Below, piece after piece: positions 1,978 to 6,833 of a stretch of 6,833 nt of DNA (positions are counted from its first letter, which is position 1; every line of letters starts with the position of its first letter). The notes beneath the pieces are model-generated. The model saw only the letters and a list, made by a program, of their open reading frames with translations, was not told where the DNA came from and searched no databases. The DNA is from Brevibacillus sp. (lineage in GTDB: Bacteria; Bacillota; Bacilli; Brevibacillales; Brevibacillaceae), in the NCBI GenBank assembly GCA_029240815.1, contig JARDZO010000292.1, positions 1 to 6,833 on the forward strand. Reading direction: 5' to 3'. Position numbers and translations under genes: made by a program.

Positions 1978-2991
1978 CTACTCCATCGTCAAAACAACAC
2001 GACCGTTAATTTGTCCTTTTTCCATCCGTTCAAATATCTCATTAATCTTGTCGAGCGGTTGTGTCTCGATGATCGCGCGCACTTTGCCGCGAGCAGCGAA
2101 GTCGAGAGCTTCCTGCATATCTTTTCTTGTCCCGACAATAGAGCCCTTCACTGTCACCCCATTGAGTACAGTATCGAAGATCGGAATCGGCAGCTCGGCA
2201 TTCGGCAGGCCCACGACGACGAGGGAGCCCCCGCGTCTGACTGATTTGTACGCTTGCTCAAACGCTTTTTTGGTGACAGCAACACTGATCGCACCGTGTA
2301 CGCCACCGACCTGCTCCTGGATCGCCGCCACAGGGTCAACCTCGCTGCCGTTTACGGTGATATCCGCACCCAGTTCTTTTGCCAGCTCCAGCTTTTCATT
2401 GTGGATGTCTACGGCTACGACGTTGTAGCCCATTGCTTTGGCGTATTGAAGAGCGACGTGCCCCAAGCCGCCGATGCCGTAGATGGCTACCCATTCCCCT
2501 GGTTTCACGTTGGCAACCTTCAGTGCTTTGTACGTCGTCACACCTGCGCACAGAATCGGAGCGGCATCCACATCGTTCAGCTCAGCCGGGATGCGAGCTA
2601 CGTAAGCAGCCGGTGCCACGCAGTATTCGGCGTAAGCTCCATCTGCCGAGTAGCCTCCGTTCACTTGCTTTTGGCAGAGTGTCTCCCAACCGGACAGGCA
2701 GTAATCACACTCGCCGCATGCGGAGAACAGCCAAGGAATCCCTACCCGATCACCCAGCTTCAAAGAAGTTACGCCCTCGCCCAGCTTTTCTACTACGCCT
2801 ACCCCTTCATGTCCGGGAATCAACGGCAGCTTTGGCTTGACTGGCCAGTCCCCATGGGCAGCATGCAGGTCTGTATGGCACACACCGCACGTTTTGATTT
2901 TAACCAGTACCTCTCCATACCCTACTTCTGGTACCGCTACCTCCTTTACCTCCAATTTTTTCAGGAACTCATTGACTACCGCTGCCTTCAT
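1978..2991 (-). CDS. adhP: Zinc-dependent NAD+-type alcohol dehydrogenase (AdhP/ADH-T type)
   Basis: This is a complete medium-chain alcohol dehydrogenase of 337 residues, the same length as thermophilic Bacillus ADH-T, which it closely resembles from memory. It is a cytoplasmic enzyme interconverting primary alcohols and aldehydes. The catalytic zinc ligands are Cys38 (in GVCHTD), His61 (in GHEGVG) and Cys148 (in CAGVTTY). The structural zinc lobe has Cys92, Cys95, Cys98 and Cys106. The Rossmann motif GIGGLG spans 172-177, and Asp195 at the end of the second strand indicates NAD+ over NADP+. The ATG at 2991 is chosen because AAGGGAGG (3007-3000) sits 8 bases before it; a GTG at 3015 is in frame but would place this SD inside the gene. 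It is divergent from the iron-ADH operon, preceded by a sigma-54 promoter and cre-like palindrome, and ends at its own terminator. All catalytic residues are intact. Confidence 0.95.
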
Positions 2992-3058
2992 CTCTTTTTC
3001 CTCCCTTAGTCCCACTTTCGGCTCTTGCCGTATGGATTAGTGTGATGCTGTTTTCTAT

Positions 3059-3075
3059 AGCAAGCAGCGTGCCAA
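3059..3075 (-). promoter_or_regulatory. Sigma-54 (SigL/RpoN) -24/-12 promoter for adhP
   Basis: On the minus strand the sequence reads TTGGCACG-CTGC-TTGCT, matching the sigma-54 consensus TGGCAC-N5-TTGCW at every conserved position. The invariant GG (3073-3072) and GC (3061-3060) are separated by exactly 10 bases. Transcription would start near 3048, giving a leader of about 57 nt before the ATG at 2991. Sigma-54 promoters need an AAA+ activator, and such a protein is encoded at 5692 onward. A TGC-TATAGA sequence overlapping its downstream edge could act as an extended -10 for sigma-A, but its -35 partner is poor. Confidence 0.85.
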
Positions 3076-3097
3076 GTTGAAAGCGCTTTATTCAACT
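3075..3097. promoter_or_regulatory. Palindrome with cre-like core, candidate CcpA or other operator
   Basis: AGTTGAA (3075-3081) and TTCAACT (3091-3097) form perfect 7-base arms around AGCGCTTTA. Within it, 3078-3091 reads TGAAAGCGCTTTAT, which matches the Gram-positive cre pattern TGWAANCGNTNWCA except at the last two positions. It abuts the -24 element of the adhP promoter, placing a bound protein against sigma-54 polymerase. CcpA repression is the first candidate. A binding site for the local NtrC-type regulator is the alternative, although it lies closer to -24 than is usual for an enhancer. Confidence 0.55.
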
Positions 3098-3126
3098 GCT
3101 GTTTAGGCGCTATCCCTCCCTTACGA

Positions 3127-3184
3127 GCCGTCATTTCGGCCGCTTGTGCCAAAAAAACGGCCCACTAGCCAACCTTTTGGCAAG
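3127..3184. promoter_or_regulatory. Cluster of dyads in the divergent region, candidate upstream activator sites
   Basis: GCCG-N6-CGGC lies at 3127-3140. A larger imperfect inverted repeat, CTTG-TG-CCAAAA (3143-3154) against TTTTGGCAAG (3175-3184), follows. These lie about 55-110 bases upstream of the adhP -24 element, a distance typical of enhancer sites for sigma-54 activators. They also lie 60-120 bases upstream of the iron-ADH start. No repeated copy of either dyad is seen, so the assignment rests on position and symmetry only. I found no convincing sigma-A or sigma-54 promoter for the plus-strand operon in 3098-3230. Confidence 0.3.
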
Positions 3185-3244
3185 AAGAGGGATTTACTCT
3201 TTGGTTGCGGTATTACTAGGTAGTGGAAAAAGGGGGACGATGGT

Positions 3245-4393
3245 ATGCAAATTTCCAAATTCATGACTCCGGAAATCATTTTTGGCAACCAGTCCATTGC
3301 CCAGATCGGGGAAAGCCTGCGCAGACTCGGGGCGACACGCGTCTTTCTCGTCAGTGATCCTGGAGTAGTCAGCGCTGGCTGGGTGGAGCGAATCATGGAA
3401 TATCTCACTTTGCAAAGACTCGATTACCACCTGTGGACCAACGTCACAGCCAATCCCAAGGACTATGAAATCCATGCAGGTGTGGCGGAGTATCGGGCAC
3501 ACGAATGCAATGCGATTCTGGGTGTAGGCGGCGGGAGCGCGATCGATGCAGCGAAAGCCATCGCGCTTTTGGGCACGAATGAAGGCAGTATCGTCGAATA
3601 CGAAGGGGTAGACAAAATCTTGCATCCCCTCCCCCCTATGGTCATGGTCCCAACCACAGCTGGCTCCGGCTCAGAGGTTTCGCAATTTTCCATTATCGTC
3701 GACAGTGCCAGAAAGGTGAAAATGGCGATCATCTCCAAATCGCTGATTCCCGACATCGCGATCATTGACCCGCAGACGCTGATGACCAAGGACAAGCAAT
3801 TAACTGCCAATACGGGCATGGACGTCCTGACCCATGCCATCGAATCGTATATTTCTCTTGCTGCTACGCCCTTGACCGAGGTGCATTCGCTACAGGCGAT
3901 GCGGCTGATCGCCAAGCATTTGCGACCGTCCGCAGCCAGTCAGTACAACGCAGATGCCAAGCAAGCGATGGCGATGGCAAGCCTCCAGGCAGGTATTGCC
4001 TTTTCCAACGCCATTCTCGGTGCTGTACACGCCATGTCTCACCAACTGGGGGGCTTCCTGGATGCTCCTCATGGCGAAGTGAATGCCATTCTGCTCCCTT
4101 ACGTACTCGAATACAACTACATCGCTGCACCTGAAAAATACAGACAGATCGCCGAATGCTTGGGAGAAAACACCGCAGGCCTGAGCTCCCGGGATTCCTC
4201 CCGGCTCGCCTTGAAGGCAGTGAAAGAGCTGGCTCGTGATCTGGATTGTCCCGAATCGCTGTCTGCCATCGGGCTCGTTCCCGAACAGATTGACCTCTTG
4301 AGCACGCATGCCTTGCTCGACGTCTGCATGACCACGAATCCTCGCGACATGAGCGCCCAAGACGTTGCTACCCTTTTCCGCCATGCCTTGTAG
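3245..4393 (+). CDS. Iron-containing (group III) alcohol dehydrogenase
   Basis: This 382-residue cytoplasmic protein belongs to the Fe-ADH family that interconverts alcohols and aldehydes (or lactaldehyde, 1,3-propanediol and related substrates) with NAD(P). The N-terminal dinucleotide domain carries VFLVSD at 33-38 and the GGGS loop at 95-98 followed by AID-AAK. The family signature appears as PTTAGSGSEVS (136-146), with Ser where Thr is usual at two positions. The predicted metal ligands are all present: Asp193 and His197 (GMDVLTH), His262 (VHAMSH) and His276 (APHGE). The ATG at 3245 has a G-rich SD (GGGGG, 3232-3236) 8 bases away; an ATG at 3240 is out of frame and closes after eight codons. 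The kinase gene follows after only 10 bases with no terminator, so the enzyme is very probably co-expressed with the two-component pair. Substrate is unknown. Because of this linkage it may be a metabolic partner, or like Pseudomonas ErcA, a contributor to signalling. Confidence 0.93.
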   Translation: MQISKFMTPEIIFGNQSIAQIGESLRRLGATRVFLVSDPGVVSAGWVERIMEYLTLQRLDYHLWTNVTANPKDYEIHAGVAEYRAHECNAILGVGGGSAIDAAKAIALLGTNEGSIVEYEGVDKILHPLPPMVMVPTTAGSGSEVSQFSIIVDSARKVKMAIISKSLIPDIAIIDPQTLMTKDKQLTANTGMDVLTHAIESYISLAATPLTEVHSLQAMRLIAKHLRPSAASQYNADAKQAMAMASLQAGIAFSNAILGAVHAMSHQLGGFLDAPHGEVNAILLPYVLEYNYIAAPEKYRQIAECLGENTAGLSSRDSSRLALKAVKELARDLDCPESLSAIGLVPEQIDLLSTHALLDVCMTTNPRDMSAQDVATLFRHAL

Positions 4394-4403
4394 GAGGTCG
4401 ATT

Positions 4404-5723
4404 ATGCAAAACAAACAGGAAATTCTCGAAAAGCTGACCGGCATCCAATCCTCCCGGAAAAGCTATTACACCGAGCTGATCTACCTCGTGGAGGAGATGA
4501 AAAAGAAAAACAGGCAACTGGCCGTCATCAACCAGCTGACGCAAATCCAGATCAATGCCTCCTGGCCGGAAACCAGCATCTACATCGCGAGCCAGCTTTC
4601 GCAGATCCTCCCGTTTGGTCATTTTGTTCTGACGCTCATCAAGGGAAGCAATCTTTCCTCCTATCTCACGAGACAGGATGGTGAGCAATGGCAGTGTCAT
4701 ACGCTCGCAGGCGCTGTCACACCTGATCAACCGACCCTCTCGCTAAAGGACGTCCTGCATCATTCCTTTGGTGAGATGTTTCCTGATCATCAAGCTCTGT
4801 CCGTTCCATTGCGCAGCCAGTTCAACCAGACATTCGGCTTCCTCACCCTGCTGCAAGAGGACAGGCAAAAGGTAGATGGCGAGGATGCTGACTTGTTTTC
4901 ATTGATTGCCGGTCATGTCGCTGTCTCGGTAGAAAACATCCTGCTTTTTCAAGACGTCAGCGAAAAAATCAAGATTGAAGCCCAGCTGATCCAATCAGCT
5001 AAAATGGCTGCGATCGGTGAAATGGCTGCCGGGATCGCCCATGAGCTGAACAGTCCGCTCACCGCTATTCTCGGTAATTCCCAATTGCTCCTGAGAGAAA
5101 TGAAAGCCAGTCCGACTGCTCCCTTGATGAATGACATCTATCAATGCGGTGTGCGCTGCAAAAAAATCATTCAAAACCTGCTCACCTTTTCGCGGCAGGA
5201 GGAGTATTTGTTCTCTACGATTTCGATCAATGAAGTCGTGGAGGACTCTCTCGGTCTGATCGGCTATCAGCTCTCTGTCTCCGGTCTTACGATTACCAAG
5301 GAGCTGGCACAGCCCCCGCTGCTCTTTCACGGGAGCCGTCATCAAATCGAACAGATCGTGATCAACCTGCTGCTCAATGCGAGAGACGCACTCGTAGGTC
5401 GAGAAAATCCCCGCATCGGGATTCGCTCTTTTATGGTGGAGGAAGACGGCGGTCAGTGCTATGCAGGGCTCACCGTGCATGACAACGGAGAAGGGATCGC
5501 AGCGGAACAGCTGCAGCAAATCTTTCACCCATTTTATTCCACCAAGGAGCGGACAAAAGGAACAGGCCTCGGCTTATCTGTCAGTCTGGGAATTGCGGAA
5601 GCGCATGGTGGGCGGCTGCTAGCCGAAAGTGAAGAAAACCAGTACAGCAGATTCACCCTGCTGTTGCCGCTTTTACGAGAGGAGGTCCAGGATGGAGAAG
5701 AAACGGATGCTGATTGTGGATGA
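4404..5723 (+). CDS. Soluble GAF-domain sensor histidine kinase (NtrB-like catalytic core)
   Basis: This is a 439-residue histidine kinase without membrane segments or signal peptide, so it should sense a cytoplasmic cue. Order of parts: an N-terminal charged, probably coiled-coil stretch (1-45), a GAF-like sensory domain (about 45-183), a linker helix, a HisKA dimerisation domain with phosphoacceptor His213 in A-H-E-L-N-S-P-L, and an HATPase_c domain with N box (NLLLNARDAL, 321-330), G1 box (DNGEGI, 360-365), F box (FHPFYSTK, 374-381) and G2 box (GTGLGLS, 386-392). The ATG at 4404 is preceded by a near-perfect AGGAGGT (4392-4398) that overlaps the end of the upstream gene; an ATG at 4365 lies inside the iron-ADH gene and lacks this site. 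It overlaps the regulator gene by 32 bases, implying translational coupling and a cognate pair. No family-specific ligand motif is visible in the GAF region, so the signal is unknown. Confidence 0.93.
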   Translation: MQNKQEILEKLTGIQSSRKSYYTELIYLVEEMKKKNRQLAVINQLTQIQINASWPETSIYIASQLSQILPFGHFVLTLIKGSNLSSYLTRQDGEQWQCHTLAGAVTPDQPTLSLKDVLHHSFGEMFPDHQALSVPLRSQFNQTFGFLTLLQEDRQKVDGEDADLFSLIAGHVAVSVENILLFQDVSEKIKIEAQLIQSAKMAAIGEMAAGIAHELNSPLTAILGNSQLLLREMKASPTAPLMNDIYQCGVRCKKIIQNLLTFSRQEEYLFSTISINEVVEDSLGLIGYQLSVSGLTITKELAQPPLLFHGSRHQIEQIVINLLLNARDALVGRENPRIGIRSFMVEEDGGQCYAGLTVHDNGEGIAAEQLQQIFHPFYSTKERTKGTGLGLSVSLGIAEAHGGRLLAESEENQYSRFTLLLPLLREEVQDGEETDADCG

Positions 5724-6833
5724 TGAAACAGAGGTTACCTCGTTTTTCACCTATTTTCTCAGGCAAAAAAACTGCGATGTGGTCGTGGCGAATACAGGAA
5801 AAGACGTAGAACGCCTGCTCCTCTCCCAATTGGAAGGTTTCCATGCCGCCTTGGTCGATTTAAAGCTGCCAGATGCCAATGGTTTGGATCTGCTCAAACG
5901 GATCAAAGCCGTGTTTCCCACCTGCGAGGTCTTGATCATGACCGGATACAGCACGATCAAATCTGCGGTAACTGCCATGCAATGGGGAGCAAAGGACTAC
6001 CTGGAAAAACCGTTTGACGATCTGGACAGTCTGGAGCGTGTCATCGATGCAGTCCTGGAATCGTCTGCGCAAGAGGATGACGAGCTGTCTCGTGAGGCTG
6101 CCCAGTACGGAATCATGTATGCACCCGATAGCCCGATGGCCAAAGTCGTCACCATCGCCAAAAAGCTGGCAAAAAAGGCGATTCATATCCTGATCGAAGG
6201 GGAAACCGGGACCGGCAAAGAATTGATGGCCCGCTTCCTGCACGGAGCCAGCTCACGCTCGGAGCAGCCCTTTGTTGCCTTTAACTGCGGTGCCGTTCCT
6301 GAATCTTTGTTAGAGAGTGAGCTGTTTGGCTACGAGAAAGGGGCTTTTACCGGAGCGCTAAAAGCGCGCAAAGGCTTTTTCGAGCTCGCCCACAACGGCA
6401 CCCTGTTTCTCGATGAAATCGGAGAAGCCCCTTCCTCCATTCAAGTAAAGCTGCTGCGCACGCTGGAAACAGGTGAGTTCATGCGGATTGGCGCCGAACA
6501 GGTCGGCCAGAGTAACATTCGCTTTATTTCCGCCACCAACCGCGATCTGGAGCATGAAGTAGAAATGAATCGCTTTCGCAGAGACTTGCTCTACCGCCTC
6601 GAAGGGATCAAACTGTCGATCCCGCCTCTGCGCGACCGTATCCATGACATACCCACGATCGCCCAGGCGTACATCCAAAAAAGGAGCGGAACCGTCCGTG
6701 AAATCGATTCGGACGCAATGGAATTGCTGCAGCATTACGACTGGCCTGGCAACGTCCGTCAGTTGATCAATGTCCTGAATCAGACCCTTGCCCTGCACGA
6801 ATGCGAGAGAGTCCGAGCTGAGCATCTGCCAGC
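5692..6833 (+). CDS. NtrC-type sigma-54-dependent response regulator (partial, 3' end outside window)
   Basis: The frame is open from ATG 5692 to the window edge, giving 380 full codons. Residues 1-122 are a receiver domain with acidic pair Asp10/Asp11, phosphoacceptor Asp56, Thr84 and Lys106 (in EKPF). Residues about 140-380 are an AAA+ sigma-54 activation domain with Walker A GETGTGKE (170-177), the sigma-54-contacting GAFTGA loop (217-222), Walker B TLFLDE (237-242), SATNRD (280-285), arginine-finger region FRRDLLYRL (295-303) and the sensor [10 protein letters not shown] (351-358). All ATPase motifs are intact. A C-terminal Fis-type helix-turn-helix is expected beyond 6833. The start is set by GGAGG (5681-5685) lying within the kinase gene. 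The role is to activate sigma-54 promoters when phosphorylated by the adjacent kinase; the adhP promoter at 3059-3075 is the obvious local target. Confidence 0.95.

Follow-up and report, generated by a model that had tools for sequence, protein, structure and literature searches.

A predicted alcohol-sensing two-component switch with an ErcA-like dehydrogenase and a sigma-54 promoter of adhP in Brevibacillus

Gene layout and the adhP control region

A 6,833-nt stretch of DNA from Brevibacillus sp. (contig JARDZO010000292.1 of assembly GCA_029240815.1; hereafter the window) carries four genes arranged around one intergenic region, which are predicted here to form an alcohol-responsive regulatory module. 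On the minus strand, adhP (1978..2991) encodes a Zn alcohol dehydrogenase, the predicted target of the module. Opposite to it, three plus-strand genes encode an iron-containing alcohol dehydrogenase (Fe-ADH; 3245..4393), a histidine kinase (4404..5723) and an NtrC-type response regulator (5692..6833), the last being cut by the window end. The gap between the Fe-ADH and kinase genes is 10 nt, and the kinase and regulator genes overlap by 32 nt. A preliminary description, made from the window sequence, had reported this compact trio facing a divergent zinc alcohol dehydrogenase gene; its reading frames, gap, overlap and GAFTGA motif were all confirmed, and the divergent gene product was identified as AdhP by NCBIfam (NF006940, 420.9 bits versus a cut-off of 344).

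The regulator consists of a receiver domain and a sigma-54 AAA+ domain with an intact GAFTGA, as proposed earlier, and is thus a two-component regulator of the NtrC type. Its relatives also show GSFTGA, GAFSGA and GAFTHA at this position. Because the window ends inside the gene, the helix-turn-helix is visible only in relatives: the full-length regulators of loci L001–L009 have 478–489 residues and a C-terminal end that resembles a helix-turn-helix by eye.

Conservation was evaluated using a regulator-based search, which returned 80 loci, ten of them titled Brevibacillus, with neighbour genes listed for loci up to L038. The order adhP–Fe-ADH–kinase–regulator was complete in nine of the ten Brevibacillus loci (L001–L009), where adhP adjoins the module and shows 91–96% identity, and the promoter element was present in all nine. 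In the tenth locus, from B. fulvus (L067/G183), the regulator match covered only residues 138–380 at 43% identity, and this genome gave no match to a kinase with the N-terminal motif described below. The window kinase is identical to the Brevibacillus choshinensis kinase P0001, its nearest named match in a protein search, at 415 of 439 positions and to P0002 at 416 of 439; the strain is thus related closely to B. choshinensis but may belong to another species.

The sigma-54 -24/-12 consensus is TGGCACGNNNNTTGCW, a GG-N10-GC element. The element upstream of adhP (3059..3074, minus strand) matches it with no mismatches and is aligned in 10/10 intergenic regions (nine loci and the window), in line with the consensus promoter assigned previously. 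Three matches with at most two mismatches were found in the window against 1.36 expected by chance, and the adhP element was the one exact match. Transcription of adhP would start near position 3048. The intergenic alignment also contained two features absent from the preliminary description. One is a set of three tandem GCC-N8-GGC dyads at 3127–3181, between adhP and the Fe-ADH gene, with the consensus GGGCCGAAATTTCGGCCC. Dyad 1 (3127..3140), a predicted upstream activating sequence (UAS), lies closest to the -24 element; dyad 2 (3148..3161) is 21 nt from dyad 1, and dyad 3 (3168..3181) is 20 nt from dyad 2, a spacing of about 20–21 nt that recurs in the alignment. The GCC-N8-GGC pattern is exact in 29/30 Brevibacillus dyads, namely in 10/10 for dyads 1 and 2 and in 9/10 for dyad 3, of which L004 carries a one-base variant. 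Helical phasing of the operator positions in related loci (R of 0.69 at 10.5 nt, 0.73 at 11 nt and 0.48 at 10 nt) is suggestive only. The other is a cre-like site (3077..3091, plus strand), a hypothetical CcpA site that abuts the -24 element. It has one mismatch to the known consensus and, with 3.17 such matches expected in the window, is not above chance as a pattern; its standing derives instead from its conservation across the 10 aligned Brevibacillus regions. Scanning revealed no sigma-70 promoter for the Fe-ADH operon.

In the nine Brevibacillus genomes, the tandem dyads stood out at the module locus. The same pattern was used to look for further targets in 10 genomes; the 18 other forward matches did not exceed the 25 matches of a reversed-pattern control, and Sporosarcina had none of the strict form.

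The module across Bacilli and the exchange of its target genes

The pair of Fe-ADH and kinase is not confined to Brevibacillus. Among 398 sampled Bacilli genomes, 61 contained an Fe-ADH match at E ≤ 1e-100, and the kinase gene lay directly downstream of it in 61/61. An NtrC-type regulator followed the kinase in 49/61 genomes, and 10 further loci were too short to show the gene. The remaining two, L151 and L152, have a receiver protein instead (Pfam-checked in L151 only). These two loci combine an ErcA-type Fe-ADH, a motif kinase (with a PAS domain in L151) and receiver proteins, and represent a third type of output, within Bacilli. In L127 (10478–11892), counted among the 49, the regulator gene consists of two overlapping pieces in different frames, which may reflect a sequencing error or a broken copy.

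The Fe-ADH and kinase were constant while the putative target varied. A divergent adhP was present in most long Bacilli loci. It was convergent, behind the regulator, in five (L141–L144 and L146); L149 and L150 carry it upstream in the same orientation, and six loci (L135–L140) have a second Fe-ADH in its place. In addition, 11/43 loci encode an aldehyde dehydrogenase with 70% or more identity to that of Sporosarcina L010, which itself has the gene; one of the 11 is partial at the locus edge and one is in two pieces. The L010 protein was identified as ExaC, an acetaldehyde dehydrogenase, by NCBIfam (985.5 bits, cut-off 900).

Sigma-54 sites were scored with a matrix whose weights we set from the consensus, a strong site being one that scores at least 12. 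The 40 target regions comprised the window, L002, L010 and 37 of the loci L122–L164; L130, L145 and L147 (no candidate target seen), L151 and L152 (other module type) and L138, a near-copy of L136 whose site scores 15.9, were excluded. A strong site was found in 39/40 regions of 700 nt, window included, with L148 as the miss, and within 400 nt in 38/40. Of the 102 such sites in the 43 loci L122–L164 (1.45 Mb of strand), 66 lay elsewhere, which corresponds to one per roughly 22 kb. Upstream of the linked Fe-ADH, 0/45 regions of 400 nt reached a score of 12, the best being 9.0. The Fe-ADH gene is therefore probably not a target of the regulator.

Operators were evaluated using a matrix trained on 29 Brevibacillus sites, and a region passed when it held a tandem pair that at most 2/200 shuffles equalled. 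Such a pair was found in 38/40 target regions (misses L122 and L150), in 36/38 when the two training loci were excluded, and in 34/36 when the close relatives L163 and L164 were also excluded. As a control, linked Fe-ADH upstream regions without a target there passed in 1/11. Moreover, 8/9 loci with a non-divergent target passed (8/10 counting L122). Taken together, the comparison strongly suggests that adhP is the target of the regulator through the sigma-54 promoter and the operators.

Candidates outside this pattern were also evaluated. The second Fe-ADH of L122, although counted among the 40, has a sigma-54 site but no operator (109/200 shuffles were as good) and adjoins another activator, and is probably not a target. 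In L149 and L150, a shifted dyad, tcc-N8-gga, occurs together with a divergent C-terminal end of the regulator; operator and regulator may possibly have changed together. In Brevibacillus, exaC was considered as a second target and rejected. Its best sigma-54 site scores 13.6–15.9 in 13/13 genomes (L219–L231; in L220 the best-scoring site differs from the one aligned with the other genomes), but its upstream dyads are of the tgttcc/ggaaca type, as judged by eye and without a shuffle control. This combination of a sigma-54-like promoter and different dyads at exaC makes it probable that Brevibacillus has a further sigma-54 activator linked to aldehyde or alcohol. The module had been called self-contained, which is true in part only, as exaC of Brevibacillus is located elsewhere behind its own sigma-54-like promoter.

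The Fe-ADH and the N-terminal motif of the kinase

The top NCBIfam match of the Fe-ADH was ErcA (NF041833, 'alcohol dehydrogenase-like regulatory protein'). In B. centrosporus, the module Fe-ADH scored 496.5 bits for ErcA and the next paralogue 344, and the ErcA cut-off was passed by the proteins of P. benzenivorans, Marinobacterium and L151. The ErcA score alone cannot separate Fe-ADH roles because unlinked Fe-ADHs approach it, whereas a phylogenetic tree separates them. The tree comprised 71 rows from 114; linked near-copies above 86% identity were dropped, and the unlinked rows came from few genomes. L151 and L152 carried unlinked labels in the run though they are kinase-linked, and the tree was kept with its original labels. 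The kinase-linked Fe-ADHs, including that of the window, formed one clade of 49 rows (support 99/97), which comprised a Bacilli part (96/88) and a sister ErcA part (100/99) and also held L217, whose branch is long. The Fe-ADHs swapped in as targets fell outside this clade and grouped with proteins of Acinetobacter and Marinobacterium (100/100); a program warning pointed to long branches among several unlinked rows. By this tree, the window Fe-ADH and ErcA share an ancestor from which the catabolic-type Fe-ADHs sampled are separate, and its gene lies directly upstream of a kinase gene, as in all the Bacilli genomes with a match.

Four residues, K5, E10, S146 and Q147, occur in every linked Fe-ADH row with a residue at the position and in 0–6% of unlinked ones (49 versus 22 rows). 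The metal ligands D193, H197, H262 and H276 are present in the window protein, and the four ligands are intact in 49/49 linked rows. The gene had been described as encoding an iron-type alcohol dehydrogenase, which was confirmed; from these comparisons, its product is better read as a probable sensory partner of the kinase, of the ErcA/YiaY type, than as a further response enzyme.

The kinase contains HisKA and HATPase_c domains by Pfam, with HELN at residue 213, and a GAF match below the Pfam cut-off. The structure model showed a mostly confident GAF-like domain and catalytic parts (predicted template modelling score 0.46), and a fold search with it returned histidine kinases. The usual Kyte–Doolittle threshold is 1.6, and one 19-residue stretch (164–182) peaks at 1.78. 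Residues His, Glu and Asn occur in this stretch, which the model places within the long helix connecting the GAF-like domain to HisKA. The kinase, previously called soluble, is therefore probably cytosolic, with the reservation that this one stretch exceeds the threshold.

At its N-terminus, the kinase carries the motif LTGIQSSRKSYYTEL (residues 11–25; 4434..4478, plus strand), the predicted contact for the Fe-ADH. Seven columns of the motif region are invariant among nine kinases from Bacilli, Pseudomonas and Marinobacterium. The expression G..S.RKS[YH]Y..L matched 61/61 Bacilli loci, once per locus, and nowhere in 1.15 Mb from the 70 loci L011–L080. The kinases that follow ErcA read LLGLGSHSVRKSYYPEL in P. 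benzenivorans and LIGLGGHSARKSYYPAL in Marinobacterium, and many Pseudomonadota kinases read RKSHYPEL.

A motif-only profile was then searched regardless of Fe-ADH. In 398 Pseudomonadota genomes, 17/19 matches lay directly after an ErcA homologue with 52–100% identity to P. benzenivorans ErcA, and the remaining two were weak coiled-coil matches; profile A1 includes the P. benzenivorans kinase, whose own match is by construction. In 50 mixed genomes (50 of the 70 loci L011–L080), 10/11 matches, from Desulfobacterota, other Deltaproteobacteria, Sporomusaceae and Propionivibrio, lay directly after an Fe-ADH, and the last had an E value of 0.0099. Overall, 27/30 matches outside Bacilli directly followed an Fe-ADH, and the other three were weak (E 0.0045–0.0099). 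The single profile match in the P. benzenivorans genome was the kinase after ErcA. Conversely, an Fe-ADH-first search of 229 genomes of the P. benzenivorans class gave two matches at E ≤ 1e-110, both with a motif kinase. The middle domains of the motif kinases vary between GAF, PAS (in L151 and L186) and hardly any domain. This variation of middle domains and outputs around a constant motif argues for a link of the Fe-ADH to the motif rather than to the GAF domain. Docking of the Fe-ADH through this motif is plausible.

The remainder of the window lies outside the module. A TctB-family protein (86–574) and a DUF2568 protein (710–1102) are encoded on the minus strand. Between the DUF2568 gene and adhP lie two distinct imperfect palindromic repeats of about 220–230 nt (1191–1410 and 1655–1885). 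Both belong to dispersed families in Brevibacillus, with 14, 28, 19, 43, 30 and 1 matches and 9, 7, 15, 10, 11 and 1 matches in six genomes, and members of the two families adjoin in the same order at several places. An Rfam search of the window gave no match at gathering scores, the repeats included.

Proposed mechanism, rival explanations and related systems

We consider it likely, on comparative grounds, that the locus encodes an alcohol-sensing two-component switch in which the Fe-ADH acts as the kinase's receptor and adhP is switched on by the regulator via sigma-54. In this mechanism, the Fe-ADH would bind, and perhaps turn over, a short-chain alcohol with nicotinamide adenine dinucleotide and its metal, and would contact the N-terminal motif of the kinase. 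The bound or turned-over state would alter kinase activity, and the kinase would phosphorylate the regulator. The regulator would then bind two to three tandem dyads upstream of adhP and drive sigma-54 RNA polymerase at the -24/-12 element. The target enzymes, AdhP and in some relatives also ExaC, would perform the steps from ethanol to acetate. The cre-like site is a hint that expression of adhP may be damped by a preferred sugar, possibly through CcpA. The preliminary description had the regulator turning on adhP in response to an alcohol, aldehyde or redox cue; the comparison supports the target and its sigma-54 promoter. An ethanol or aldehyde cue is consistent with the occurrence of ExaC, as an addition or a replacement, in some relatives.

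Several observations weigh against this reading. The Fe-ADH score of 496.5 bits is below the curated ErcA cut-off of 550, and the scores of some unlinked Fe-ADHs are close to it (Acinetobacter 436, Marinobacterium 422 and the L135 target Fe-ADH 421). With all metal ligands intact, the Fe-ADH may be an ordinary enzyme, and the kinase has a GAF-like domain of its own. The motif region has low confidence in the model of the kinase alone (predicted local distance difference test 54–55), and the motif expression was fitted after the sequences had been viewed. No candidate target was seen near the module in L130, L145 and L147, and the operator shuffle statistics leave the relatedness of the loci uncorrected.

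Some of these points would be expected if the Fe-ADH were a plain catabolic enzyme, co-transcribed with its regulators, and if sensing of alcohol, aldehyde or redox state fell to the GAF domain of the kinase. The intact ligands and the GAF-like fold agree with such a role, as does the fact that the solved structures nearest to the Fe-ADH belong to methanol and 1,3-propanediol dehydrogenases. However, a catabolic enzyme would not readily account for the lack of an upstream sigma-54 site in the loci surveyed, the retention of the Fe-ADH where target enzymes are swapped, or its coupling to one kinase motif even where PAS replaces GAF. Moreover, the ped cluster of Pseudomonas is repressed when yiaY or the gene of its kinase is lost, according to a 2026 review (PMC12997753). 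We therefore regard this explanation as quite unlikely. Somewhat better placed, though still improbable, is an indirect action in which the Fe-ADH makes an aldehyde or NADH that the kinase senses without docking. YiaY has been proposed to sense methanol via its oxidation (PMC10308882), and residue H281 of YiaY has an effect (PMC12997753), both of which are consistent with turnover; the N-terminal motif common to kinases across phyla, together with signature residues near the N-terminus of the Fe-ADH, favours contact. Finally, adhP might be driven by another sigma-54 activator while the neighbouring regulator serves other genes, and the further activator suggested by Brevibacillus exaC lends this some credit. 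Nevertheless, it is very improbable, as the operator type recurs across genera at the target beside the regulator and, in nine Brevibacillus genomes, the tandem dyads stand out only at the module locus.

The proposal that the Fe-ADH is the receptor of the kinase has its closest precedent in Pseudomonas. Among the papers listed by full-text searches of an open-licence library, there was none on the kinase motif or on the occurrence of this module in Bacilli. In the ErcA–ErcS/YiaY–YiaZ (PP_2683) system with ErbR/AgmR, as here, an Fe-ADH of the sister clade is encoded directly upstream of the kinase, the targets are ethanol genes, and the kinase motif is present (seen in P. benzenivorans and further genomes). 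In contrast, PP_2683 is a hybrid kinase and its output is a LuxR-type activator (PMC12997753), and the Marinobacterium kinase L186 has a PAS domain and a receiver, whereas the window kinase has a GAF-like domain and the output here is a sigma-54 activator. The contact between YiaY and its kinase was modelled via their N-terminal parts, and the review states that the sensing mechanism and the signal transfer to the kinase are unknown (PMC12997753). The short kinase motif and the four Fe-ADH residues are a candidate contact, which makes the question of signal transfer testable by point changes. Whether these systems are trans-phylum dehydrogenase-gated kinases, in which an Fe-ADH clade provides alcohol receptors that clamp G..S.RKS[YH]Y..L and the output in Bacilli is a sigma-54 activator, in Pseudomonas a LuxR-type activator and in others a stand-alone receiver, is in our estimate evenly balanced.

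Similar arrangements were found in Desulfovibrio-related genomes. In N. oxamicus (L217/L232), a kinase whose motif is degenerate, SKLGFFQEL, and then a receiver are encoded after the Fe-ADH. In a Desulfovibrio metagenome-assembled genome (L218/L233), the Fe-ADH is accompanied by a kinase match and by a frame with GSFTGA, and a gene for an iron-sulphur flavoprotein lies about 6 kb upstream. We take these loci to be counterparts of DVU2396–2394, in which DVU2395 and DVU2396 are presumably the kinase and the Fe-ADH. According to PMC4641369, DVU2394 of Desulfovibrio vulgaris belongs to the receiver-type activators and carries GSFTGA; it targets the alcohol dehydrogenase/heterodisulfide reductase operon (PMC3333781). 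It thus resembles the window regulator as a receiver-type sigma-54 activator with an alcohol dehydrogenase target, but its reported site is a direct repeat and not a GCC-N8-GGC dyad.

Other known systems share single features with the module. AdhR of C. beijerinckii is a sigma-54 activator of alcohol dehydrogenase genes that acts via three UAS, all contributing (PMC7017808), and thus, like the module, links sigma-54 activation of an alcohol dehydrogenase gene to multiple sites. However, clostridial AdhR sites are TGT/ACA inverted repeats of the TGT-N10-12-ACA type (PMC6615313), unlike the GCC-N8-GGC sites of adhP, and the available passages mention no dehydrogenase partner; AdhR is set beside the module by description only. 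NosP–NahK provides a precedent for a dedicated sensor protein encoded beside the kinase that it modulates (PMC12997753), as is proposed here, although NosP is a nitric oxide sensor and not a dehydrogenase. The operators and promoter described here could serve as an alcohol-inducible expression switch for Brevibacillus. Compared with its Pseudomonas relatives, the Brevibacillus locus appears as a second, simpler version of an ErcA/YiaY-like system, in which a single kinase and a single regulator serve one predicted promoter.

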